This document shows, piece after piece, positions 21,854 to 36,870 of a stretch of 36,870 nucleotides of DNA. Numbering within the stretch: the stretch's first letter is position 1; every line of letters begins with the position of its first letter. The translations under genes were made by a program, and so were the position numbers. The notes beneath the pieces were generated by a model. It was not told the DNA's origin. It searched no databases and saw only the letters and a list, made by a program, of their open reading frames with translations. This DNA is from Gemmatimonadota bacterium (lineage in GTDB: Bacteria; Gemmatimonadota; Gemmatimonadetes; Gemmatimonadales; GWC2-71-9). The stretch is from assembly GCA_003221035.1 (NCBI GenBank), contig QHUB01000039.1, positions 1 to 36,870 on the forward strand, written 5' to 3'.

Positions 21854-21873
21854 CCCGGTTACATTCCAGTCAT

Positions 21874-23308
<1,435 letters not shown>

Positions 23309-23309
23309 G

Positions 23310-24575
23310 TCAGTCCAGCCTGCGTTCCGAGGAGCGAGCATGCCCTTCGAGCCCCTCGACGCGGCCGAACCACGCGGCATCCTCGAGGAGCGGACGGGCC
23401 GCCGCACCATCGTCGATGCGCAGCCACGTCCGTACGCGCAGGAAGGTATAGACCGACAGTCCCCCCTTTGACCGCGCTGTGCCGCCCGTCGGCAGGACGT
23501 GATTCGGCCCCGCGCCGTAGTCGCCCAGCACTTCGGCGGAGGCGCCGCCGATAAACAGCGCACCGAAATGCGTGAGGCGCGGCGCGACCAGGTCCGCATT
23601 GTCAAGCAAGAGCTCGAGGTGTTCGGGCGCGAGCGCGTCGCACGCCACAACCCCCTCCTCCACGTTCGACACAACGACTACCCCGCCGTTGGCCAGTGCC
23701 TTCCGCGCGAGGGGCTCCGTCGGCAACGCCGCGAGCTGACGCGCGAGCTCCGCCTCGACGTGCTCGGCAAGCTTGCGATCGGTGGTAACGAGGATCGGCA
23801 GCGCATCGGCATCGTGCTCAGCCTGCGCGAGGAGGTCGGCGGCAACCGCGGCGGGCGAGGCGGTTGTATCGGCGAACACGACGAGCTCCGACGGTCCCGC
23901 CAACATGTCGATCGCCACTCGTCCCGCGACCAACTGCTTGGCGGCGGTGACGTAGCGGTTGCCGGGCCCGACGACCACGTCGCACGCCGAAAGCGGCCCC
24001 ACGCCGAAGGCAAGCGCCGCAATGGCGTGGGCGCCGCCGGCCGAGAGCACCCCATCAGCGCCCGCGAGGGCCGCGGCTGCCAGTGTGATCGGCTGCGGCT
24101 TGGGACTCGCCACCCAGATCTGCTCGACCCCGGCAGTCTTCGCAGTCACCGCGGTCATCAGGACAGACGAGGGCAACGGATACCGGCCCCCCGGTGCGTA
24201 ACAGCCGGCGCGCTCCAGCGGCGCGATCCAGTGGCCAGCCGTGCCGCCCGGCACTGCGACCGTGACACTGTCGAGTGCTCGCCGTTGTGCCTCCGCAAAA
24301 GTGCGAATCCGCTCCGCGACCCGCTCGAGCCGTGCGCGGTCCTCCGCCGCCAGATCGCTCAGGGCCCGAGCGAGCACGCCGCGATCGAGAAACAATCGTC
24401 CGCCCGGCGCGACATCGCTGAAGCGCTCGGCGTACTCGCGCAGCGCCGCTTCACCCCGCAGGCGTACCGACTCCACGATCGGCGCCGCCACCGCAATGGC
24501 CTCCGCCGGGACGACACCGTTGCGCCGGCTCACCAGCTCGGCGACGCTGCGCAGGGGCAGAAGCCGGGAGCTCAC
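23310..24575 (-). CDS. hisD: Histidinol dehydrogenase HisD
   Basis: A 421-residue HisD, which performs the last two NAD-dependent oxidations from histidinol to histidine. Conserved blocks include ERAGCYAPGGRYPLPSSVLMTAVTAKTAGV, the zinc region in GPGNRYVTAAKQLV, AGPSELVVFAD and LAQAEHDADALP, and the C-terminal PEHLELLLDNAD and SVYTFLRV. The GTG at 24575 overlaps the stop of the upstream gene (GTGA) and opens [10 protein letters not shown]; an extension to 24884 reads only a shadow of that gene. Last gene of the operon. A short GC-rich tail follows the usual HisD core. Confidence 0.95.
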   Translation of the reverse strand: MSSRLLPLRSVAELVSRRNGVVPAEAIAVAAPIVESVRLRGEAALREYAERFSDVAPGGRLFLDRGVLARALSDLAAEDRARLERVAERIRTFAEAQRRALDSVTVAVPGGTAGHWIAPLERAGCYAPGGRYPLPSSVLMTAVTAKTAGVEQIWVASPKPQPITLAAAALAGADGVLSAGGAHAIAALAFGVGPLSACDVVVGPGNRYVTAAKQLVAGRVAIDMLAGPSELVVFADTTASPAAVAADLLAQAEHDADALPILVTTDRKLAEHVEAELARQLAALPTEPLARKALANGGVVVVSNVEEGVVACDALAPEHLELLLDNADLVAPRLTHFGALFIGGASAEVLGDYGAGPNHVLPTGGTARSKGGLSVYTFLRVRTWLRIDDGAAARPLLEDAAWFGRVEGLEGHARSSERRLD

Positions 24576-25831
24576 GTCTTCCCCACCATCGGACGACGGC
24601 TGACCGCGCGATGCCGGCGGCCGAGCTCGGCGCGGACGTCGGCCAGAGTTCCGCCACCACGCGCCAACGCCACGAGCGCCATGTACAGCACGTCGGCGGT
24701 CTCGCGCACGACATCCTCCGACGACTCGGCCCGCGCAAGCTCCTCCGCTTCTTCCCGCAGCTTCGCCGCAAGCAGCGCCGGATCCGCCAACAGCTTCGCG
24801 GTCCCCGAGCCGGCAATTGGACGACGCTTTCGATCCGCGAGCGCGAGCTCCAGCTCGGCCAGATCGAAGTCGGATGGCCAGCACGAGCGGCGATTCAGGT
24901 GACAGAAGCCCGCGCCTGACTGCCGCACGGTGAAGCGCAGCGTATCGCGATCACAATCGAGGTCCACACGCACGAGGTGCTGCGTGTTTCCGGAGGTCGC
25001 GCCTTTCTCCCAAATCGCTTGTCGCGAGCGCGACCAATAGATGCCACGCCGCTCGGTGACCGCGCGGGCCAGCGACTCGCGCGTGCTCCAGACCAGCCCG
25101 AGCGCGCGGCCCGCTTCGTCGCAGACGACTGTGGGCCAGAGCTCGCCCCAGATCGGTTTCGCCAGCGGCGCGGCGACGGCGTCGCCGAGCGACAGCCGGC
25201 CCGTGTACAGCGCCATGCCAACCTGCGCATCGGCTCCCAGTGAATCGAGCTCGGCAATTTCAGCCGCGGTGGTGATCCCACCCGCGGCCGTCACCCGCAC
25301 GCCGGCGGCGGCGCGCACGACGGCATCCACAGCCGCGCGGTCGAACCCGCCCATCGCACCTTCCTTGTCCACCTGCGTGAAGAGGAAGCCGCCGACGACA
25401 CCCGCCAGCTCGCGCACGCGCTCGAGCACCGGGATGCCGGTCGAGGTGCGCCACCCGTCCACCACAACCGCGCCGCGTTCGGCATCCACCGCCGCGATGA
25501 CGCGGTCGCGCGGCAACGCGCCGCAGAATTCCGGTGTCGCGGCGGTGCCGATCATCACCTGCGTCGCGCCCGCATCGAGCCAGCGCCGTGCGGCGTCGAG
25601 GTCGCGAATGCCTCCGCCGACGCGGCACGGCGCCCGCCGCACGAGGCCCTCAATCAGGTCGGCGTTCGAGCCCTGGCTGAGTGCGGCATCGAGGTCCACG
25701 ACGGCCACTTCGCCGGCGAGCGAGAACTGCTCCAGACGCTCGACCGGATCGCCCCCGTCCAGAACGAACTCCCTGCCGCGCCGCAGCTGCACGGCGCGTC
25801 CCCGCATGATGTCGATGCTCGGCACGATCAT
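24572..25831 (-). CDS. hisA: HisA-HisI-HisE fusion: ProFAR isomerase + phosphoribosyl-AMP cyclohydrolase + phosphoribosyl-ATP pyrophosphatase
   Basis: One 419-residue protein with three enzymes. HisA (1 to about 225) is a beta/alpha barrel with the acid-base Asp pair D7 (PSIDIMRG) and D116 (AAVDAERG) and the phosphate loops GGGIRDL and AAGGITT. HisI (about 229-319) has WSRSRQ, KGATSGN, metal-binding DCDRD (292-296) and Cys 310 and 317. HisE (about 322-410) has the acidic EEAEEL and ETADVLY helices. The usual HisIE pair is joined behind HisA, so steps 2, 3 and 4 share a chain. The ATG overlaps the hisHF stop (ATGA). Confidence 0.93.
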
Positions 25832-27210
25832 CGCCGCACCTCGATCCCGCGGCCGGCCAGGTCAGCCTTGATCCCATCCACCGTGTCGTCGCCATCGTGA
25901 AAGACCGATGCGGCCAGCACGGCATCCGCGCCCGCGGCGAACGCTGCGGCAACGTGCTCGCGCGTGCCGACGCCACCGGAAGCGACGACGGGAATCCGCA
26001 CCGCCGCCGACACCGCGCGCAGCAGCTCGAGGTCGTGCCCGGTGCGCGTCCCGTCGCGATCCCAGCTCGTGAGCAGGATTTCGCCGGCACGGAGCTGTTC
26101 GCCTTCGCGCGCCCACGCAACCGCGTCGGGCCGGGCTATCTCCCGGCCGCCCAGCACCAGGACCTCCCAGCGCTCCGCCGCGCGCCGCGCATCGATCGCC
26201 AGGACGACGCACTGACACCCGAACGCCTGCGCGAGCTCAGTCAGCAACGCGGGCCGCTGCACCGCAGCGGTATTGACGCTCACCTTGTCTGCACCGGCCT
26301 CGAGCAGCGCGCGCGCATCGTTCACGCTGCGAACGCCTCCGCCCACGGTCAGCGGAATGCCGATCGCCGCGCGCACGCGCCGCACCGTGTCGAGCTGGGT
26401 GCCGCGGCCGGCGGCGGACGCCGCGACGTCGAGGATGACGATTTCGTCCGCGCCTTGCGCTTCGTAGCGCGCCGCCTGCTCGGCAGGGTCGCCCGCGTCG
26501 CGCAGATCCTGGAAACGGACGCCTTTCACCACGCGGCCGTCCCGCACGTCGAGACACGGAATCAGGCGTGGCAGCAAACGTGACGTCGCTGTCGATGCCA
26601 CCGCGGTGGGAGCCGTTCGTCCCGTGAGCCAACGCTCGAGCAGCGCGGCGCCATAGCCGCTCGAGAGCTCGGGATGAAACTGGCACGCGAGCACACCCTC
26701 ACGCTCGAGCGCAGCGACGAACCGGACCCCGTGCGTCGTCCACGCAGCACGCCAGCCATCCGGCCGCTCACGCAGCGCATACGAGTTTGCGAACGCGGCC
26801 ACACCATCGGTCACGAACCCTGCGCCTGGTTCGACGGTGACATGGTTCCAGCCGAGGTGCGGGATCCGGACGTTTGGTGGCAGCCGCCGGCACGTTCCCG
26901 CGATCACACCGAGCCCGCAAGACTCGGGAGATTCTTCGCTCGCCTCACACAAGAGCTGCATGCCGAGACAGATCCCGAGGATTGGCGTTCCGCGCGCCGC
27001 GAGTTCGGGAATCACGGCGTCGAGCCCGCCGCCGCGGAGCGCCGCCATGCCGGCGCCAAACGCGCCCACGCCCGGGAGCACGAGTCGTTCGGCCTCGCGC
27101 ACGGCGGCGGGATCGGCGCTGACCACCGCAGTCGCCCCGAGCCGCCGCAGCGCCCCGGCAATCGACGCGAGGTTCGCGACCCCCGAGTCCACGATCACGA
27201 CGTCACTCAC
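25828..27210 (-). CDS. hisHF: HisH-HisF fusion: imidazole glycerol phosphate synthase, both subunits
   Basis: A 460-residue single-chain IGP synthase. The N-terminal glutaminase (1 to about 197) has nucleophile C81 in GICLGMQ and H179/E181 in [10 protein letters not shown] 17-residue linker (about 198-214) leads to the cyclase (from about 215) with catalytic D221 ([10 protein letters not shown]) and D340 (LAIDAR). Eukaryotic HIS7 has the same order, but in bacteria the two are usually separate. GTG 27210 overlaps the hisB stop by 8 bp and has a GGAG upstream; a reading to 27249 is longer without homology. Confidence 0.94.
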
Positions 27211-27808
27211 GACGGGCCGCTCCGAGTGTGCCCTTCGTGGACGGGACATCGTCGAAGCCGGACAGCGCGACAGCCTGGCGCAGCGCGAGCGCGGTCGCCT
27301 TGAACGCCGCTTCGGCGCGATGGTGATCGTTGTCGCCTTTCAGCACATCGACGTGCAGCGTGATCCGGGCGGCAGTCGCGAGCGAGCGCAGCACGTGCGG
27401 AATGTTCTCGCACGCGAGCTCACCGATCGTTTCGCGCTGCAGGTCCAGAGCGATGTCCGCAAAGGGCCGGCCGGACAGATCGACCACCGCACGCGCGAGC
27501 GCTTCGTCCAGCGGGGCGAGCGCCCATCCGAAGCGATTCACCCCGCGCCGCTCTCCCAGGGCGCGATCCAGTGCTTCGCCCAACGCGAGCCCGCAATCCT
27601 CGGCGGTGTGATGATCGTCGACCTGCAGGTCCCCCTCACCGGTGAGCATGAGGTCGAAGCGCGCATGACGGCTGAGCGAGTCGAGCAGGTGGTCGAGGAA
27701 CCCGATCCCGGTCTTCACGGCAGTCTTGCCCGTCCCATCGAGATCGAGGGTCATGCGGATCGACGTCTCGCGCGTCGCGCGAGTAATGCAAGCAGTGCGC
27801 GAACTCAT
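27203..27808 (-). CDS. hisB: Imidazoleglycerol-phosphate dehydratase HisB
   Basis: A 201-residue monofunctional IGP dehydratase (step 6). The metal-binding motifs are complete: [10 protein letters not shown] with [15 protein letters not shown] and [15 protein letters not shown]. There is no HAD phosphatase half, unlike enteric HisB, so phosphatase activity must come from elsewhere; the adjacent hisC fusion is the candidate. The ATG overlaps the stop of the hisC-HAD gene (ATGA). Confidence 0.96.
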
Positions 27809-29454
27809 GAAAGGAGCTCCTCGAGGTCGGTGACATCACTGAGAACGTGGGCGGCGCCCGCCTCAGTGAGCGCGGTGGCAGTCGCAACGAGGTCGTCACC
27901 GGGCGCCACGATGCCGAGGGGGATGACGTCCGCACCCGCGGCGGCGCGGACGTCGTCGGGCGTATTTCCCACCATCCAGGCGGATCGCACACCAAGTCGT
28001 GCGAGCGCGAGTCGCACGGGGGCGGGATCGGGTTTGCGCGCGGCATCTTCCATGCAGACGGTGGCGCGGAACAGCCCGGCGATACCCTCGCGCTCGAGGA
28101 ACCACCGCGCCTCGTCGCGCGGCCGGCCCGTCACGACGGCCAGCGGGAGCCGGTTCGAGAGTCGCGCGAGCACGTCGCGTGATACGATTGAACGCTCGCG
28201 CTCGCGCAATCCCGGAGATCCGTTCGCCCCAAGGTACAGCGCTTGGTAGCGCGTGGTGACGCTCGGCAGATCGACCGCGCCGCCGCCGGCCGCAATGAGC
28301 CGCTGCGTCACGATCCAGTCATTGCTGGCGTCACCGGCACGCAGCGCCGCCTCGATGTCGTCCATGGTGACCGTCACACCAAAGGACGCCGCGGTGGCAA
28401 TCATCGCGGCGCGCTGCGACTCACGGACGTCCGCGAGCACGCCATCGAGATCGAAGACGATGGCTTCTGGCGTGAGCACTGTCTCGAGCGCGCGCGTGAG
28501 CCGCTCGAAGTCGGCGGGCTCACCCGGCAGCGTAATGCGCAGACTCGTCTCGAGACGCGCACGGCCGGGGAAGTCGCGCACCAGAATCCCGCGCGCGCCG
28601 AGCCCGTCGCGGACGAACGCCGCCCGCGGGCCGAAGTCGGCGAATACGAAGTTTGCCTGCGAGGCGCGTGCATCGACGCCGCGCGCGCAGAGGAGTTGCC
28701 GAAGGTTGGCGCGCTCCATACGGACCTGCGCCACGTGGGCGCGCAACGCGGCGTCGCCGCGTCGCAACTGGAACAGCGCGAGCGCGAGCGACGGCCCGGC
28801 GACGGGATATGGGGCGCCCGCGGCGCGCAGCACGGCGATCACCTCCGAGGTCCCGACGGCGTAGCCCACGCGACACCCCGCTAGACCCCAGGCCTTCGAC
28901 ATCGTGCGGACGACGACCACGTTGGGGAGCTCGAGCACGCCAGGGTCGATGTCGGCGTCGGCGTACTCGACGTACGCCTGATCGAGCAGCAGGAGAGCAC
29001 GCGGCGCGGCGGCCGCTATGCGTCGCACATCATCCCGCGATGCGACGCCGCCTGTCGGATTGTTGGGCGATACGATGACTACGATGGCGATGCGGTTGTC
29101 CAGCTCCGCGAGGATCTCCTCGAGGGGAAACGCATCCGCAATCCACGGCACGCGCACGAGCGGAGCACCGGCGAGGTCAGCGAAGCGCTCCAACATGTCG
29201 AAGGTCGGCTCGGGCAGCAGCACCGGGCGATCGGGGCCCGCGTACGCTCGGTAGATGCGATCGAGCGCCTCGTCCGCGCCGGCTGTCACGAGGACGCGGT
29301 CCGGGCTCACCCCGACGCGATCAGCGAGCGCCGTCTCGACTGCCGTGGCATCGGGGTAGCAGCGCAGCAGCTCCGGATCCAGGGCTGCCAGCTCGGCGAG
29401 CAGGGCTTGTGGTGCTCGAGGCCCTTCATTGCTGTTGAGGCGGAGCACGCTCAT
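27805..29454 (-). CDS. hisC: HisC-HAD fusion: histidinol-phosphate aminotransferase with C-terminal HAD phosphatase
   Basis: A 549-residue fusion. Residues 1 to about 325 are a HisC-type class I/II aminotransferase with LRLNSNEGP, YPD, SPNNPTGG, the PLP-lysine K187 in TMSKAWGLAGCRVGY, and the phosphate-binding ETSLRITLP. Residues about 329-549 are a HAD-superfamily hydrolase: motif I FDLDG (D335, D337), motif II VVTGRP (T442), motif III K474 in RKPDP and motif IV GNTPDD (D500, D501). The hisC product is the substrate of a histidinol phosphatase, so the HAD half is a likely HolPase. ATG 29454 overlaps the hisG stop (ATGA); a reading to 29640 is longer without homology. Confidence 0.93.
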   Translation of the reverse strand: MSVLRLNSNEGPRAPQALLAELAALDPELLRCYPDATAVETALADRVGVSPDRVLVTAGADEALDRIYRAYAGPDRPVLLPEPTFDMLERFADLAGAPLVRVPWIADAFPLEEILAELDNRIAIVVIVSPNNPTGGVASRDDVRRIAAAAPRALLLLDQAYVEYADADIDPGVLELPNVVVVRTMSKAWGLAGCRVGYAVGTSEVIAVLRAAGAPYPVAGPSLALALFQLRRGDAALRAHVAQVRMERANLRQLLCARGVDARASQANFVFADFGPRAAFVRDGLGARGILVRDFPGRARLETSLRITLPGEPADFERLTRALETVLTPEAIVFDLDGVLADVRESQRAAMIATAASFGVTVTMDDIEAALRAGDASNDWIVTQRLIAAGGGAVDLPSVTTRYQALYLGANGSPGLRERERSIVSRDVLARLSNRLPLAVVTGRPRDEARWFLEREGIAGLFRATVCMEDAARKPDPAPVRLALARLGVRSAWMVGNTPDDVRAAAGADVIPLGIVAPGDDLVATATALTEAGAAHVLSDVTDLEELLS

Positions 29455-30329
29455 GGCACGATCTGCGACAGCGTGGAGACCACGACGTCGGTGCCGCCGG
29501 CCGCCTTCACGGCGGGAATCACTTGCGGCAGCAGGTCGCGCGGAACGGCGGCTTTCACAGCGTAGCCGCCATTGCCGAACAAGCGGGCCACCGTCGCCTG
29601 CCGCATGGACGGCAGCACGGCCACCACCGCGTCGAGGCACGCGGCCGATGCGTTCACTTCCAGCATGACACGGCGGCGCGCTTCAAGCACCGAGTTGATC
29701 AAGAGAACGAGATCGTCGATGAACCGGCGCCGCGGGGGATCTTCCAAAGCCGCGCGGTTCGCATACAGGCGCGTGGAGGACCGCATCAGGACGTCCACGA
29801 TCGCCAGTCCGTTCGCTTCGAGTGTCGCGCCGGTCGCGGTGTTGTCGACGATCACGTCGGCATCTTCAGGCGGGAACACTTCCGTCGCACCGTACGAGCG
29901 GACGAACTCGGCACAGACCGCGCGCGCAGCGATCCAGCGGCGGGTCAGGCGTTCGTATTCGGATGCGATCACGAGTCGCCGAGCAGGAAGCCGGCCGTTT
30001 TCGAGCAGTGCCGCCGGGGCGGCGACGACGAGCTGCACCGGATCGAGTCCCGTGTCGAGCAGCTCGACGACATCCACCTCGAGTTCGGCGACCCAGTCGG
30101 CCCCGGCAAACCCGACATCGCGGCTGCCGAGCGCCAGCATTTCCACGATGTTCTGCGGCTTGAGCAGTTTCGCTTCGGCGCCCGGGAGCGAGACGTCGGG
30201 GCGATAGCCCCGCGCGCTGGGACGCACGCGAATGCCGGCGTCGGCGAGCAGGGTGAGCACGCCATGCTCCATCCGGCCCTTGGGGAGCCCGAGTCGAAAC
30301 GGAACGGCGCGAGACGCAATTGTGGACAT
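29451..30329 (-). CDS. hisG: ATP phosphoribosyltransferase HisG, long form
   Basis: A 292-residue HisG that commits PRPP and ATP to histidine synthesis. LGLPKGRM starts the catalytic part, and DADVIVDNTATGATLEANGL is the PRPP-binding loop. The C-terminal 75 residues (VMLEVNASAACLDAVVAVLP through DVVVSTLSQIVP) form the ACT-like regulatory domain of the long, HisZ-independent form, which is inhibited by histidine. The ATG at 30329 is preceded by GGAG. A GTG at 30389 would begin inside the attenuator hairpin and is rejected. First structural gene of the operon. Confidence 0.95.
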   Translation of the reverse strand: MSTIASRAVPFRLGLPKGRMEHGVLTLLADAGIRVRPSARGYRPDVSLPGAEAKLLKPQNIVEMLALGSRDVGFAGADWVAELEVDVVELLDTGLDPVQLVVAAPAALLENGRLPARRLVIASEYERLTRRWIAARAVCAEFVRSYGATEVFPPEDADVIVDNTATGATLEANGLAIVDVLMRSSTRLYANRAALEDPPRRRFIDDLVLLINSVLEARRRVMLEVNASAACLDAVVAVLPSMRQATVARLFGNGGYAVKAAVPRDLLPQVIPAVKAAGGTDVVVSTLSQIVP

Positions 30330-30381
30330 CACAACGACTCCGTGTTGGCCGAACCGGAGCCTCCGAGGTGCGCGACGCCCT

Positions 30382-30417
30382 AAAAGCACGACGCCGGCCC
30401 TCGGGGGGCCGGCGTCG
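30382..30417 (-). terminator. His attenuator terminator hairpin
   Basis: On the minus strand a perfect 12-bp G/C-rich stem (CGACGCCGGCCC with GGGCCGGCGTCG, 5-nt loop) is followed by TGCTTTT. It sits between the leader peptide (stop at 30447) and hisG (start 30329), with no other gene between. The U-tract is short, but the stem is very stable. An alternative pairing with the region just after the leader is possible. Confidence 0.85.
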
Positions 30418-30436
30418 GTAGTGAGTCAAGACTTTT

Positions 30437-30499
30437 GCGCCTCCGGCTATCCCCCGTGGACCGAGTGATGATGGTGATGCCGGCTATGAAGAGAGGCGC
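30437..30499 (-). promoter_or_regulatory. Attenuator alternative pairings: segment 1:2 and 2:3
   Basis: Segment 1, GCGCCTC in leader codons 2-4 (30493-30499), pairs 7 bp with segment 2, GAGGCGC (30437-30443). Segment 2 together with GGGGG (30451-30455) and GCC (30445-30447) can instead pair with the terminator's 5' arm and loop (30403-30414) with 12 base pairs and two 3-nt bulges. A ribosome stalled on the His codons would cover segment 1 and favour 2:3. Confidence 0.7.
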
Positions 30500-30503
30500 G
30501 CAT
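30447..30503 (-). CDS. hisL: His-rich leader peptide of the histidine operon (hisL-type)
   Basis: An 18-codon reading frame, MRASLHSRHHHHHSVHGG, then TAG. Seven of 18 codons are His, five consecutive (30465-30479), mixing CAT and CAC. It lies upstream of hisG and is followed by a strong hairpin terminator. Ribosome stalling at the His run when charged tRNA-His is scarce would release the antiterminator. No good Shine-Dalgarno precedes the ATG; the nearest AGG is about 13 nt away. The expected transcription start is at or within a few bases of the ATG, so it may be read as a leaderless message. It is too short to be found by ordinary gene callers. Confidence 0.9.
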   Translation of the reverse strand: MRASLHSRHHHHHSVHGG

Positions 30504-30510
30504 GGATGGT

Positions 30511-30539
30511 GATATACCTGGGGCGACGAAAGCCGTCAA
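30511..30539 (-). promoter_or_regulatory. Promoter of the histidine operon
   Basis: On the minus strand TTGACG (30534-30539), exactly 17 bp, then TATATC (30511-30516). The -35 matches 5/6 and the -10 matches 5/6 of the sigma-70 consensus. Only 7 nt separate the -10 from the leader ATG at 30503, so the transcript should start at or next to the ATG. Confidence 0.75.
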
Positions 30540-31069: not shown

Positions 31070-34042
31070 TTAGCGGATGATCAGGAACTGATAGGGGCCT
31101 GTGGTGATGTCTTCGCCCCAGAACCCCGTGCCGCGGAAGCGGATGACAAAACTCCCGCTCGGCGGGACGACAAAGGAGCCGACTGGATAGAGTTGTGAAG
31201 TGCCGAAATAGCTCGCGCTGCTCCTCGTCGAAGGTTGACCGGACAACGGATCAAACATCTCGACACTCACGCCGTGGGAAGTCTCATTCATTTCAGGCGG
31301 CGCGAGCATGCGGAAGAACGCGTGCAACGTATCACCGGGTGTCCCCGACACCGTGAATTCGTCGATATCGCCGATGTAATCGAGTGCTTCGCTGCTGACG
31401 GTGTCGCCGAGCGTGTAGGCCGCAGCCGCTGCCTCCGGTGCTCGATTGACGGGAACAACGTGCAATCCGTACCGCCCGGTCAGCCCGAAGGCACCACCGC
31501 ACGTCGCGTCGGCGCACGATCTGTAAAAGCCGCCCGGCTCGAACACGGCGACGTTCACGCGTCCGCCCGGCGGCACACGGAAGGGTCCGGTGAATTTCTT
31601 GAACTGACCAACCGTCCCGGTCAACGTGTCCCCTGTGCCTGGATCGATCGCCCGGATGTACGCGAAGTCTCCGTCGTAGGCGAATCGACCGTCGTAGACG
31701 AGTCCCAGCTCCTGTCCTGGCGTCGCCGTGACGGTGAACTGATCCCAATCGCCCGGGCGATCGATCGCCTCGGTCATCACCGAATCACCGGGCGCCAGAG
31801 CGGCACTCACCTGCTCGGGGAGCGAGTCTTCGGTCACGATCGCGAAGCGGTACGGTACCTGTGTAGCGCCGCCAATGCCAAGCACGGTGAGGTTGTACCA
31901 GCCAGTCACTGGCAACTCGATCCGCATCGTCTGGTGATCGTCGAGCGCGCTAGCCGCCGCAGAGCTGTAGACCGCGGCGTTGGGGTACGCATCGTAAGGT
32001 CCCGGCGTCGTCATCGACGCAACGAGCTCGGCGCTCGATGACGGATCGAGACCTTGGAACTTCAGGTTGACGTGCTGTCCACGGTTGCCATGGAAGTGGA
32101 AAGTGTCCACGTCGCCCCAGGGGGCGATCGACTCACCTGCGACCGTATCGCCGACGGCGAACGTGTCGGCAACCGCTTCGGGCCCGAGGCTGAAGCCGTA
32201 GAGCCAGAGCCGGTAGGGACCGCGTGACGTCGAGCGCGACTGGGTCTGAAATCCGTCGACTCGCACGATGTACCTGCCGGGATGCAGTGTCAGTCGACCC
32301 GCCGATACTCGCTCACCGGGCCTCGCGTTCGACGTGGCGCTCACAACCTGGCCCGACGCGGCGTCAATCAGCTGGGCAGTCACCCAGCCATATGATGTCG
32401 TATCGCCGTCGAACTGAAAGACCAGATTGGCGCCGGTCGTGTCCGGGACCGTCACCGTGAATTCGTCGATGTCGCCGGATACATCGAGCGCTTCGCCGCT
32501 GATGCTGTCGCCCAACGTGAGCGCCTGCGGTACGTGCTCGGGGCGGCGATCGATCGAAAAGAGCGAAAGACGATACGGGCCGCGATCCGAATTGGTCACC
32601 GTCTCGACTCCGCTCACGCGGATCCGATATGTCCCGGTACTCTGCAGCGCGAAGCGCCCCGTCACCTGGTTCATCAGCACCGTGTCGCTTCCAGCGCTTT
32701 GTGCCGTGGCAACCACTGCACCCGCGTCGTTCAGCACCTCGAGTTGCAGACGCGTGTCGCTCGACCCGTTAGTCGCCTGCAAAGAGACGTTGAACTCCCG
32801 GCCTGCGGAGCCCGAGAACGTGAACTCATCGATGTCCCCAGGGAGCGCGATGTTCTCTCCCGAGACCGTATCACCAGCAACAAGGGCCGCGGGGACGTGC
32901 TCGGGGCGCCGGTCGATGGGGTAGAGATACCAGCGGTACGAACCGGTGTCGGCGATGCGCGAGTTCTGTGTGCCACTGATGCGCACCACATACGTGCCCG
33001 ACTGCGGGATCTGGAACCGCCCGGTGGCATGCGCGAACAGGGCGGTATCGGCCGCTTCCGTCCCCGGAACCAGCGCGAACAGGTCCTGCCCGACTCGCGC
33101 GACTTCGAGCTGAAACTGGTGCGTCGATTGCAGGAACGCGTTAAACTCGGTGTTCGCGGCGGCTGAAAACGTGAATTCATCGACATCGCCCGCGATGTCG
33201 ATGTGCTCGTTGGAGACTTCGGTGTTCACGGGCGCCGTCGCCGGCCGATGCTCGGGAGCGCGATTGATGAGATACGTCCAGAAGCGGTAGGGTCCCGAGT
33301 AACGCGGGTAGACGTTGCTGAGAACGGAGCTCACGTAAACGCGGTAATCCTGTGCGGCGGGGAACCGGAGCCGGCCCGTCGTCAGAGTGGGCGTCCCCGC
33401 ATCGGCAAAGACGTATCCAAATAACCCGTACTGCACGGGATCGACGATACTGAGCCCGATCGAGCCGGAGCCGGTGGGTCCCTGCGTTTCCGCGACCGCG
33501 ACGAACTCTTGGCCGGCGTCGCCGTGCAGGACGAATACATCCTCATCGACGATTGGGTCGATCGTCTCGCCCGCGACGGTGTCCCCGAGGTTAAATCGCG
33601 CTTCCCGCGACTCGGGATCCGGGTTGATCAGATAGACGACAAACCGAAAGCGCGCCGTGGACGCCGGTGGGACGCCATTCACGACGAAGTCGTACACCGT
33701 TCCGGAGCTCGTCGACATGGTCTGCGTGGCGTTCCGGTACAGCGGCGGCGATCCCGGACCCGAGATCGCGTTTGCGGCGAACCCGGGGTGGATCGAGTCG
33801 TACACGACCAATGAAACGGTGCCAGAGAGCGCTTCGAGGAAAATCGCGTAGGCGGCGCCGGGGGCCGCGGCAAAGGAATAGTGAGCCGGAGCATTCCCAC
33901 TGAGTTGATCGGTGATCTCCTGGCCGATCGGAACACGCTCGCCTTCACCCTTCGGTTCGAAGGGAGAGCTTTCGCACGCAAGCGCCATGGAGATGAAGAC
34001 GGCCGCGGCAAGCGGAATCCGGAGAGTGCGACGGTAGCACAT
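31070..34042 (-). CDS. Giant PPC-repeat lipoprotein 1
   Basis: A 990-residue surface lipoprotein with signal peptide and lipobox (SMALAC, Cys 23). It contains eight tandem units of about 105-125 residues resembling bacterial pre-peptidase C-terminal (PPC) beta-sandwich domains. Unit borders repeat as RxPE...GDTVxxExID..GDxDEFTF, for example RRPEHVPAALVAGDTVSGE. There is no catalytic domain, so it is probably a structural, adhesive or ligand-binding protein. The order and signatures of units 6 and 7 (NRGQHVN, GDWDQFT) match those of the downstream neighbour at 34087, which is therefore a tandem paralogue. The ATG follows GAAGGACC. Confidence 0.85.
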   Translation of the reverse strand: MCYRRTLRIPLAAAVFISMALACESSPFEPKGEGERVPIGQEITDQLSGNAPAHYSFAAAPGAAYAIFLEALSGTVSLVVYDSIHPGFAANAISGPGSPPLYRNATQTMSTSSGTVYDFVVNGVPPASTARFRFVVYLINPDPESREARFNLGDTVAGETIDPIVDEDVFVLHGDAGQEFVAVAETQGPTGSGSIGLSIVDPVQYGLFGYVFADAGTPTLTTGRLRFPAAQDYRVYVSSVLSNVYPRYSGPYRFWTYLINRAPEHRPATAPVNTEVSNEHIDIAGDVDEFTFSAAANTEFNAFLQSTHQFQLEVARVGQDLFALVPGTEAADTALFAHATGRFQIPQSGTYVVRISGTQNSRIADTGSYRWYLYPIDRRPEHVPAALVAGDTVSGENIALPGDIDEFTFSGSAGREFNVSLQATNGSSDTRLQLEVLNDAGAVVATAQSAGSDTVLMNQVTGRFALQSTGTYRIRVSGVETVTNSDRGPYRLSLFSIDRRPEHVPQALTLGDSISGEALDVSGDIDEFTVTVPDTTGANLVFQFDGDTTSYGWVTAQLIDAASGQVVSATSNARPGERVSAGRLTLHPGRYIVRVDGFQTQSRSTSRGPYRLWLYGFSLGPEAVADTFAVGDTVAGESIAPWGDVDTFHFHGNRGQHVNLKFQGLDPSSSAELVASMTTPGPYDAYPNAAVYSSAAASALDDHQTMRIELPVTGWYNLTVLGIGGATQVPYRFAIVTEDSLPEQVSAALAPGDSVMTEAIDRPGDWDQFTVTATPGQELGLVYDGRFAYDGDFAYIRAIDPGTGDTLTGTVGQFKKFTGPFRVPPGGRVNVAVFEPGGFYRSCADATCGGAFGLTGRYGLHVVPVNRAPEAAAAAYTLGDTVSSEALDYIGDIDEFTVSGTPGDTLHAFFRMLAPPEMNETSHGVSVEMFDPLSGQPSTRSSASYFGTSQLYPVGSFVVPPSGSFVIRFRGTGFWGEDITTGPYQFLIIR

Positions 34043-34086
34043 GGTCCTTCAGTCCTACCCGCGGCGCCGGTCGAATGTCAAGAAGA

Positions 34087-36870
34087 CTACGGTTTGACCT
34101 GCATTTCGTATGGCGCGGTGATAATGTCGTCGCCGAATGTGCCGCTGCCGCGGACGCGTATCAGGAATTGACCGCCCGCGGGTACTGTGAACGTCCCGAC
34201 CGGATAGAGTTGCGTCTGTCCGAAGATCTCCGTGCCTTTGCCCGCCAGCGTATCGCCTGTGACCGGATTGATGATCTCGAGGGTCAAGCCGTAGCCGTTT
34301 CCTCCGTTCACCGGCGGCGCCGTGAGGCGAAGGTACGCCGTGAGCGCCGACCCCGGCGTCGCGCTGGCGGTGTACTCATCGATGTCGCCCACGGAGATGC
34401 TGTCACGCGCCGTATCGCCAATGACATATGTCGCGGAGGCGCGCTCCGGAGCGCGGTTGACGTGGATTATACTGAAGCGGTAACTGCCTGTGAACCTGAA
34501 GACGTTGCCACACGTCGCATCGTAGCATTCATAGAAGCGTAACGCGGGCTCGTAGACGGCCACCTTTGTCTGGCCGCCGCTCGGCACACGGAATGGACCG
34601 GCGAACCGCGTGAACTGTCCGACGGTCCTCGCAAGCGTGTCACCAGTCGCGGGATTGAAGGCAACGATAAGCGGGAACGAATTCGTGCCCGAGGATTGGA
34701 AGACGAATCCGAGCTCTTCACCGGGGGTGCCGGTGAGGGTGAACTGATCCCAATCCCCTCGCGTGTCGATGAGCTCATCCGTGACGGAATCGCCGGGGAC
34801 GAGCATGGTTCCCACGTGCTCGGGCATCGTATCGACGGCGGTCAACGCGAAGCGATACGGGCCATGCTCGATCCGCTGCGTCGGTGAGCTTCCGCCAGAG
34901 ACCCTGATCGTATAGCGACCCGTGGCGGGGAGGTCGAGACGCGTGGTCTGCTGCGACCCCAGAGTCGGGCTGGAGGTGGGTGTCGAGACCCAACCCATGA
35001 GGTTGTCCGGCTGATAAAGCATCGCCGTATAGCCGGCATTGGACGATGAGTCGGACGTACCCTGCAAAGCGAAGTTGACGTGTTGCCCCCTGACCCCGTT
35101 GAAGTAGAAGACGTCGACATCACCGGGTGGATCGATCAGCTCCCCGTCAATTGTGTCGCCGATCGCGATGTTCTGACTGCGCGACTCGGGCGTTGGCTTC
35201 GACGGATACATCCAGACTTTGTACCATCCCGCACCGGCATCCGGGTACGGAGGACTCTGCACGCGCAGGATATAGGAGCCCGGACCGAGTGTGAAGCTTC
35301 GGTAGTAGGAGTCGATCGTCACCGGCTGGCGCGAAACGGCGCGAAGCACCGACACCCCGACACCAAGGTTCGCCTCCGTCTCGTAGAACAGGATGGCGCC
35401 GCTGCTGTCGGTTACTGAAAACGTAAACTCATCGATGTCGCCGGGAACATCGATCGATTCGGTTTCGACGCTGTCGCGGAAGCCGATCGATGCGCTATGC
35501 GTTTCCGGCTGCGGATTGACGGGGTAAACGAAGAAGCGATACGGCCCCACAGGACCGTCGAATCGCAGCTTGTAGGTGCCGGTGGTCGGGAACGCGAACC
35601 TGCCTGTGCTTTGTGAAAGCAGGTCGCTGCCCGACCCTCTCATGCTGACACTGGACATGACCTGGCCCGCGGGATTCAACAGGGAAAACTGGATTCCGCC
35701 GGTCGCTGAGCTCTCCGCCTCCACAAAAATGTTGACCTGCTGTCCGGCGGTGCCGGACAGGGTGAACTCGTCCACATCGCCGGGCGGATCGATTGATTCA
35801 CCGGCAATGGTATCGCCGATGGTGACGACGGCGGGGACAGACTCCGGAGCTCGATTGACGCGGTAGAGGTACAGCCGGTACGAGCCCGCGGCATCCGATG
35901 CTTGCTGGCTCCTGATCCGCAAACGGTACGTGGTGTCTTTGAGGGCCTTGAACCGTCCGCTGCCGTGCTGAAACAGGCCCGTATCCGCCGCCACGGAGTT
36001 AGTAAAACGAGCACCGCCTTCGATCGGCCCGAGCGGCGATAAAGTGACGAAACGCGCCGCGCTCGATTGAATGAAGGCGTTGAACTCGGCGCCGACGGGG
36101 GCCTGGAACGTGAAATCGTCGATGTCTCCCGGTATGTCGATTTGCTCGGTTACCACAGTGTTGACCGCGATCGCGCCGGCTGCCGTCTCGGGTTTCGGAT
36201 CGATCTCGTAGACATGGAATCGGTACGGCCCGGTGTACCGGGAGTTATTCAGTGTCGATGGCGGTCCCGGAACGGTAAAGCGATAGTCGCGATCACCGGG
36301 CAGCGGCCCCGCGACGAACAGCGAGCGGGGTGACTGGCCCACGATACTGTACGTATACGCCAAGACGGTCGACGACACGGGGTCGGCTACATGCATCCAC
36401 AGCGCCGGACCAGCCGTCGGTCCAAGTGGCTCGATCCAGCCCGCGAGGTACTCTCCGGCACGGCCTGCCGTGAAGAAGTCGTCCACGTCAGGGATGGCAT
36501 CGATCGATTCGCCGCTGACCGTATCGCCGACGTTGAATCGCGGGCTGCGCGATTCAGGTGCCCGATTGACCGGATAAATGAAGAACCGGAAGCGCGTGGA
36601 GTCCTGCACTCCGCCGATCACCTCGAGCAGCAAAATGCCTGCCCGCGAGAAATTGTCGCTGACCTGCGTGGAGATGTCCGGTCCTCCGGCCAAGTCGGAA
36701 ACTGTGGCGAGCGGAGCCCTGGTCACCGAGTCCTTTACCACAAGGGTGCCACCTCCGGAGTTCGCTTCGAAGAACACGGCGTATTCGGCGCCGTTTTGGC
36801 CCACAAACGAGTATGTGACTCGTTCCGATCCGAATAAGGACCCGCTGATCGTGTCGCCAGCGACCACACG
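34087..36870 (-). CDS. Giant PPC-repeat protein 2 (5' end cut by window edge)
   Basis: A paralogue of the 990-residue protein, at least 927 residues here. It leaves the window at its N-terminus, so the signal peptide is missing; about 35 residues should lie beyond position 36870. The apparent GTG near 36867 is a window artefact, since the protein aligns through it. It has eight PPC-like units with the same border motifs (NRAPESxSxxFNVGDTVSGESID, GDIDEFTFSV). Unit 6 carries NGVRGQHVNFALQG and unit 7 carries GDWDQFTLTGTPGEELGFVF, matching units 6 and 7 of its neighbour. It is transcribed 44 bp upstream of the other gene. Confidence 0.85.
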   Translation of the reverse strand, partial: RVVAGDTISGSLFGSERVTYSFVGQNGAEYAVFFEANSGGGTLVVKDSVTRAPLATVSDLAGGPDISTQVSDNFSRAGILLLEVIGGVQDSTRFRFFIYPVNRAPESRSPRFNVGDTVSGESIDAIPDVDDFFTAGRAGEYLAGWIEPLGPTAGPALWMHVADPVSSTVLAYTYSIVGQSPRSLFVAGPLPGDRDYRFTVPGPPSTLNNSRYTGPYRFHVYEIDPKPETAAGAIAVNTVVTEQIDIPGDIDDFTFQAPVGAEFNAFIQSSAARFVTLSPLGPIEGGARFTNSVAADTGLFQHGSGRFKALKDTTYRLRIRSQQASDAAGSYRLYLYRVNRAPESVPAVVTIGDTIAGESIDPPGDVDEFTLSGTAGQQVNIFVEAESSATGGIQFSLLNPAGQVMSSVSMRGSGSDLLSQSTGRFAFPTTGTYKLRFDGPVGPYRFFVYPVNPQPETHSASIGFRDSVETESIDVPGDIDEFTFSVTDSSGAILFYETEANLGVGVSVLRAVSRQPVTIDSYYRSFTLGPGSYILRVQSPPYPDAGAGWYKVWMYPSKPTPESRSQNIAIGDTIDGELIDPPGDVDVFYFNGVRGQHVNFALQGTSDSSSNAGYTAMLYQPDNLMGWVSTPTSSPTLGSQQTTRLDLPATGRYTIRVSGGSSPTQRIEHGPYRFALTAVDTMPEHVGTMLVPGDSVTDELIDTRGDWDQFTLTGTPGEELGFVFQSSGTNSFPLIVAFNPATGDTLARTVGQFTRFAGPFRVPSGGQTKVAVYEPALRFYECYDATCGNVFRFTGSYRFSIIHVNRAPERASATYVIGDTARDSISVGDIDEYTASATPGSALTAYLRLTAPPVNGGNGYGLTLEIINPVTGDTLAGKGTEIFGQTQLYPVGTFTVPAGGQFLIRVRGSGTFGDDIITAPYEMQVKP

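Follow-up and report, generated by a model that had tools for sequence, protein, structure and literature searches.

The his operon and the region upstream of hisG

The window, that is, the whole stretch of DNA that was analysed, comprises 36,870 nt of contig QHUB01000039.1 (assembly GCA_003221035.1) from a soil bacterium of the phylum Gemmatimonadota. The nearest named relatives of this genome are Gemmatimonadetes MAGs, in agreement with the preliminary description, which had suspected a distant phylum. A histidine operon in the order hisG-hisC-HAD-hisB-hisHF-hisAIE-hisD occupies the minus strand from the hisG ATG at 30329 down to 23310. Its first gene, hisG (29451-30329, minus), encodes ATP phosphoribosyltransferase, and its matches to TIGR00070 and PF01634 bear out the earlier naming of the gene downstream of the leader. 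The genes that follow, all on the minus strand, include hisB for imidazoleglycerol-phosphate dehydratase (27203-27808) and hisD (23310-24884 as the longest frame, in which the domain begins at about residue 128). Additionally, three gene fusions are found within the operon (24572-29640, minus): hisC with a HAD hydrolase domain (27805-29640 as the longest frame, the true start probably lying near 29450), hisH with hisF (25828-27249) and hisA with hisIE (24572-25831). The HAD domain fused to hisC is possibly the histidinol-phosphate phosphatase.

The start of hisG was placed at ATG 30329, which is preceded at a distance of 8 nt by GGAG (30338-30341, minus), read from the sequence as its Shine-Dalgarno element. 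A GTG at 30389 was discarded as the start because it lies inside the terminator described below, and the homology of several close relatives starts near residue 21 of this longer hisG frame. Beyond the operon, a TPP riboswitch (RF00059, 63.4 bits; 21868-21968, plus) lies immediately 5' of thiC (21959-23308, plus) and faces the his operon. On the other side, 31070-36867 (minus) encodes two large proteins of 990 and 926 aa with PPC (bacterial pre-peptidase C-terminal) domains and little else that is recognisable.

Upstream of hisG, the short open reading frame hisL (MRASLHSRHHHHHSVHGG, then the stop) extends on the minus strand from ATG 30503 to TAG 30447. Seven of its 18 codons are His codons, of which five, CATCACCATCATCAC (30465-30479, minus), are consecutive and would be the regulatory ones; a short ORF with clustered His codons and the cognate operon downstream is the arrangement of a His-type attenuator. 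No second short ORF with at least five His per seven codons is present elsewhere in the window, and none arose in 4.4 Mb of simulated order-2 Markov sequence. A targeted search of the whole 3.36-Mb genome returned five consecutive His codons at three places. The first belongs to a coding gene read in the wrong frame, the second is part of a long open stretch, and hisL alone is a short ORF before a his operon.

An intrinsic terminator hairpin, CGACGCCGGCCC/GGGCCGGCGTCG (30389-30417, minus; 12 bp, 5-nt loop, -27 kcal/mol), stands between the leader and hisG. Its stem starts 29 nt after the hisL stop and is followed by the U-rich tail TGCTTTTAG (30380-30388, minus). The U-tract is short in the window's own genus, with 3-5 T beginning 3 nt past the stem; across all leaders the median is 7 T in 10 nt. 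Segment 2 of the antiterminator, its 5' strand GGGGGATAGCCGG (30443-30455, minus), spans the hisL stop codon, and segment 3, the 3' strand CCGGCCCCCC (30403-30412, minus), is common to the 5' arm and loop of the terminator. The 2:3 pairing (CGGGGG-AUA-GCCGG with CCGGCCCCCCG) shares the terminator 5' arm and is mutually exclusive with the terminator. Moreover, segment 1 (GCGCCTC, 30493-30499, minus) can pair with the part of segment 2 that reads GAGGCGC (30437-30443, minus).

The observation of a His-rich leader and a hairpin before hisG is confirmed. The preliminary description had reported an 18-codon frame with seven His, five of them consecutive, a 12-bp terminator hairpin about 30 nt past its stop and a 1:2 pairing of 7 bp, and each can be read directly at these positions. 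It had also given the 2:3 pairing as 12 bp; the pairing exists, but it has about 11 bp and a bulge of 3 nt.

Distribution of the leader and position of its promoter

In the initial set of loci, 53 had a His-rich leader. A short His-rich frame followed by a terminator stands 5' of hisG in each of the 14 closest relatives (L002-L015) and in many other Gemmatimonadota. The leader is also present at loci labelled Phycisphaerae, other Planctomycetota, Acidobacteria, Vicinamibacterales and Sumerlaeota, as well as Spirochaetes, two Gammaproteobacteria, Acidimicrobiia and Dehalococcoidia. Some of the labels outside Gemmatimonadota may stem from mis-binned contigs; the leader of L046, labelled Dehalococcoidia, is nearly identical in kind to that of L040 from Gemmatimonadetes. 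Among the loci examined, those of Myxococcota and Alphaproteobacteria have a similar hisG, but a search upstream of it gave no His leader.

A further set of 79 Gemmatimonadota hisG loci contained the leader in 55 cases, distributed by family. It is present at all loci of families f2 (25/25), f4 (2/2) and f8 (1/1) and at 27 of 32 in f5, where one further locus is incomplete, and absent from f7 (0/12), f11 (0/5) and f3 (0/1). The f7 genomes (L129, L131, L133, L136, L138, L140, L143-L145, L147, L148 and L150) have a close hisG, about 67% identical, without the leader. Judged from these sequences, the state of f7 is a lineage-specific loss or replacement of control. Two distant types of HisG, with 60-100% and about 35% identity to the HisG of the window, are associated with the leader, and the terminator sequences differ, being of the GACGCCGGC type and the GCGGCCCGTC type. 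The predicted element is thus widespread in Gemmatimonadota and occurs in Planctomycetota and on some MAG contigs of other phyla.

The predicted hisL promoter consists of a -35 element, TTGACG (30534-30539, minus), and a -10 element, TATATC (30511-30516, minus), in the layout TTGACG-17 nt-TATATC-7 nt-ATG. From this spacing, the expected transcription start coincides with the A of the hisL ATG or lies no more than 1-2 nt away. In other words, hisL is predicted to be leaderless, with its start codon at the first base of the RNA. This promoter escaped a generic sigma-70 scan because the last base of TATATC is C. When 107 leaders are counted as they stand, related ones included and relatedness uncorrected, TTGA occurs at -42 to -33 from the leader ATG in 91 (85%), as against 90 of 3894 other ATGs of the same loci (2.3%). 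By the same count, the -10 position carries T[AT]NNNT in 61/107 leaders (4.4% of other ATGs), and Shine-Dalgarno-like words occur in only 3/107 (12.5% of other ATGs). Additionally, the base at -1 is C or T in 90 of the 107, and the start base is A in 100. The spacing is absent from E. coli hisL when the same tools are applied to it.

Within about 265 kb of contig sequence from the same genome, TANNNT peaks at -12 and -15 of long ORFs, and leaderless genes are for this reason probably not rare in this bacterium. The same attenuator could nevertheless be served by a leadered hisL, with transcription starting further upstream and the ribosome loading on a 5' UTR. An in-frame TTG at 30539 would offer such a reading an upstream start, though it is identical with the -35 box itself and was discarded as the hisL start on that ground. 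A leadered hisL is unlikely in view of the promoter elements held at a fixed leaderless spacing at most leaders of several phyla, the near absence of Shine-Dalgarno words and the TANNNT peaks at the long ORFs.

Conservation and covariation of the pairings

The preliminary description had asked whether related genomes keep the His run and the hairpin pairings. The His run, the distance to the terminator and both alternative pairings are kept, with covariation. The attenuator interpretation is supported, because this comparison, which could have contradicted it, did not. The His-codon cluster, the terminator and the antiterminator recur across the 107 leaders, and the terminator lies at a median of 31 nt from the leader stop (10-90% range 25-37). 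The compensatory changes that had been anticipated exist for 3:4 and 2:3, which covary in divergent sequences, but not for 1:2, the register of which is not kept.

An alignment of 15 sequences retains 96.6% of the terminator pairs, with two doubly changed pairs, and 95.2% of the antiterminator pairs. The 1:2 helix of the window is paired in 48.6% of the cells of this alignment, which is not above slid controls. For 2:3, most pairs are almost invariant among these 15 closest sequences, so that such counts say very little, and a swap test on divergent sequences was used instead. In this test, each segment is paired with its own partner and with the partners of other species, here among 34 representatives below 70% identity and with 5000 permutations; an earlier run had 22 representatives. 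The terminator pairing 3:4 reached -24.1 kcal/mol with its own and -16.3 with swapped partners (z -10.3, 0/5000 permutations), and the antiterminator pairing 2:3 reached -22.3 and -19.1 kcal/mol, respectively (z -6.6, 0/5000). The control pairings 1:3 and 2:4 were flat among the same 34 representatives. The 1:2 signal was weak (z -1.7, 251/5000), and weaker still without the His codons in segment 1; this helix, which would be a protector or pause helix, is present in the window and some relatives, in a register that is not conserved. The outcome was the same within each of the two terminator types. Sequence comparison thus shows selection, throughout the phylum, on the leader and on both predicted pairings.

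Many leaders at L160-L201 share a conserved tail after the His codons (e.g., GPTGRG) that resembles a peptide motif. This conservation probably reflects RNA pairing, since the tail coincides with antiterminator segment 2.

The alternative hairpins might instead act on translation, hiding or exposing the hisG ribosome-binding site without termination of transcription, and helices that sequester such a site in place of a terminator are described for some attenuators in the available text of PMC9413887. Nearly all leaders, however, have a GC-rich hairpin with a U-rich tail, and the hairpin of the window ends about 50 nt 5' of the hisG ATG with GGAG outside it, which makes translational attenuation very improbable. 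Poly-His peptides bind metals. The frame could thus be imagined as a small metal-binding protein, or as a chance run before a hairpin that simply terminates transcription arriving from upstream. However, the peptide varies except for its His cluster and the segments that pair in the RNA, the frame lies before hisG, segments 2 and 3 covary and the simulated 4.4 Mb contained no such run; this reading is highly improbable. Control by a T-box or a HisR-like repressor, both of which act on his genes in Firmicutes according to the available text of PMC9413887, with the leader as a relic, is equally far-fetched given the absence of a T-box covariance-model match in the window (gathering threshold) and in the region (E <= 10) and the visible selection on the leader and both pairings.

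The proposed switch and its comparison with known systems

The element is very probably a ribosome-mediated transcription attenuator of the his operon that senses charged tRNA-His; the short U-tract of the window's genus, the unconserved register of 1:2 and the absence of the leader from f7 and f11 weigh against this reading. RNA polymerase would start at or beside the A of the hisL ATG, so that the ribosome would have to begin on an AUG at the very 5' end, with no Shine-Dalgarno sequence to guide it. A shortage of charged tRNA-His would make the ribosome stall on the five His codons, leaving segment 2, around the stop codon, free to pair with segment 3. Formation of 2:3 would block the terminator and allow transcription of hisG-hisD. 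With ample histidine, the ribosome would move on to the stop codon and cover segment 2, segment 3 would pair with segment 4 and transcription would end near 30380. The ORF, its His codons, the terminator, the antiterminator, their covariation and the distance from promoter to ATG are seen in the sequences and their comparison; translation of hisL, stalling at the His codons, termination at about this position and the response to histidine are what we infer from the arrangement and conservation of the leader.

A fold model, in which the transcript ends in the terminator loop and the position of the ribosome masks RNA, is consistent with this switch. In the window, segment 3 is paired upstream with a probability of 0.77 when the ribosome is on the His codons (whether the first, the middle one or the last), of 0.09 when it is at the stop and of 0.25 without a ribosome; some of the contrast between stop and His codons follows from the design of the model, since the more RNA is masked, the fewer partners are left for pairing. 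Across the 107 leaders, the mean was 0.77 versus 0.61 with segment 2 shuffled, the real leader being higher in 105/107, and within this model it is only the shuffled-segment control that speaks to selection.

Outside the window, a likely leucine attenuator lies before leuA (locus L225, G000:C40:48116-48298), with the leader MNAFALLLSLVLLLGLTLSRGVAARAEVRS, its stop and, 31 nt further on, the hairpin CCGCGAACCCAATCAGGTTCGCGG with CTTTTTTG, followed by leuA. ilvB is inside an operon headed by leuA, and it was the leuA upstream region that was examined in its place. No Trp leader was seen upstream of trpE.

The enteric his attenuator is a six-segment structure, and the Gemmatimonadota element follows a smaller 1:2 / 2:3 / 3:4 plan. 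The two are alike in a short His-rich ORF before hisG, in a mutually exclusive antiterminator and terminator and in the expected signal, charged tRNA-His. They differ in that the promoter of E. coli hisL is not at the leaderless spacing while the Gemmatimonadota hisL is predicted to be leaderless, and in that the latter element is a compact 3:4 / 2:3 switch without a conserved 1:2 helix. The enteric His_leader model RF00514, which scores 131.6 bits on E. coli as a control, matched neither the window, even at E <= 10, nor 19 sampled relatives, and no model in Rfam matches the element. The layout had been likened at the outset to that of enteric his operons: the attenuation plan holds, but the enteric element itself does not, with RF00514 silent, 1:2 poorly conserved and hisL apparently leaderless.

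His attenuators are known in Proteobacteria and some Firmicutes, as stated in the available parts of PMC9413887 and PMC2965389. The Firmicutes examples (B. cereus group, Peptostreptococcaceae and Erysipelotrichales) combine a His-codon leader with alternative hairpins, and their leader peptides were found by comparison only. They belong to other phyla, no leaderless start is described in these parts of the two sources, and the likeness is one of description only. Leaderless leader peptides, in turn, are known from trpL of Sinorhizobium meliloti (PMC7298713) and from leuL, trpL, ilvL and others of Streptomyces lividans, for which eight are listed and none is His (PMC8079986). These leaders have the start codon at the transcript 5' end and stand mostly before amino-acid biosynthesis genes; they concern Trp, Leu and branched-chain amino acids, whereas the present case concerns His, in another lineage and with a leaderless start that is predicted.

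In the literature searched, with subscription journals mostly outside it, no paper on attenuation of this kind in Gemmatimonadota and no description of a leaderless leader ORF for histidine were found. The element therefore appears to be a known mechanism in a new lineage, a histidine attenuator unreported in Gemmatimonadota with a predicted leaderless leader ORF. It is also reasonably probable, if less assured, that most Gemmatimonadota use leaderless attenuation without a Shine-Dalgarno sequence as the standard control of their his operons, and that the same control exists in Planctomycetota and other phyla. It would then have been retained across two HisG types about 35% identical, with terminator and antiterminator changing together, as an undescribed and widespread class of his attenuators in which the ribosome loads at the RNA 5' end. 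For a soil phylum that is large and for the most part uncultivated, the element offers a specific candidate regulator of amino-acid synthesis that is open to experiment. An RNA family could be built from the 107 leaders, and annotation could take in their ORFs, which gene callers probably overlook. Compared with E. coli, such leaders would be a naturally occurring example of attenuation that does without a 5' UTR, in which the coordination of ribosome loading with polymerase escape must differ.
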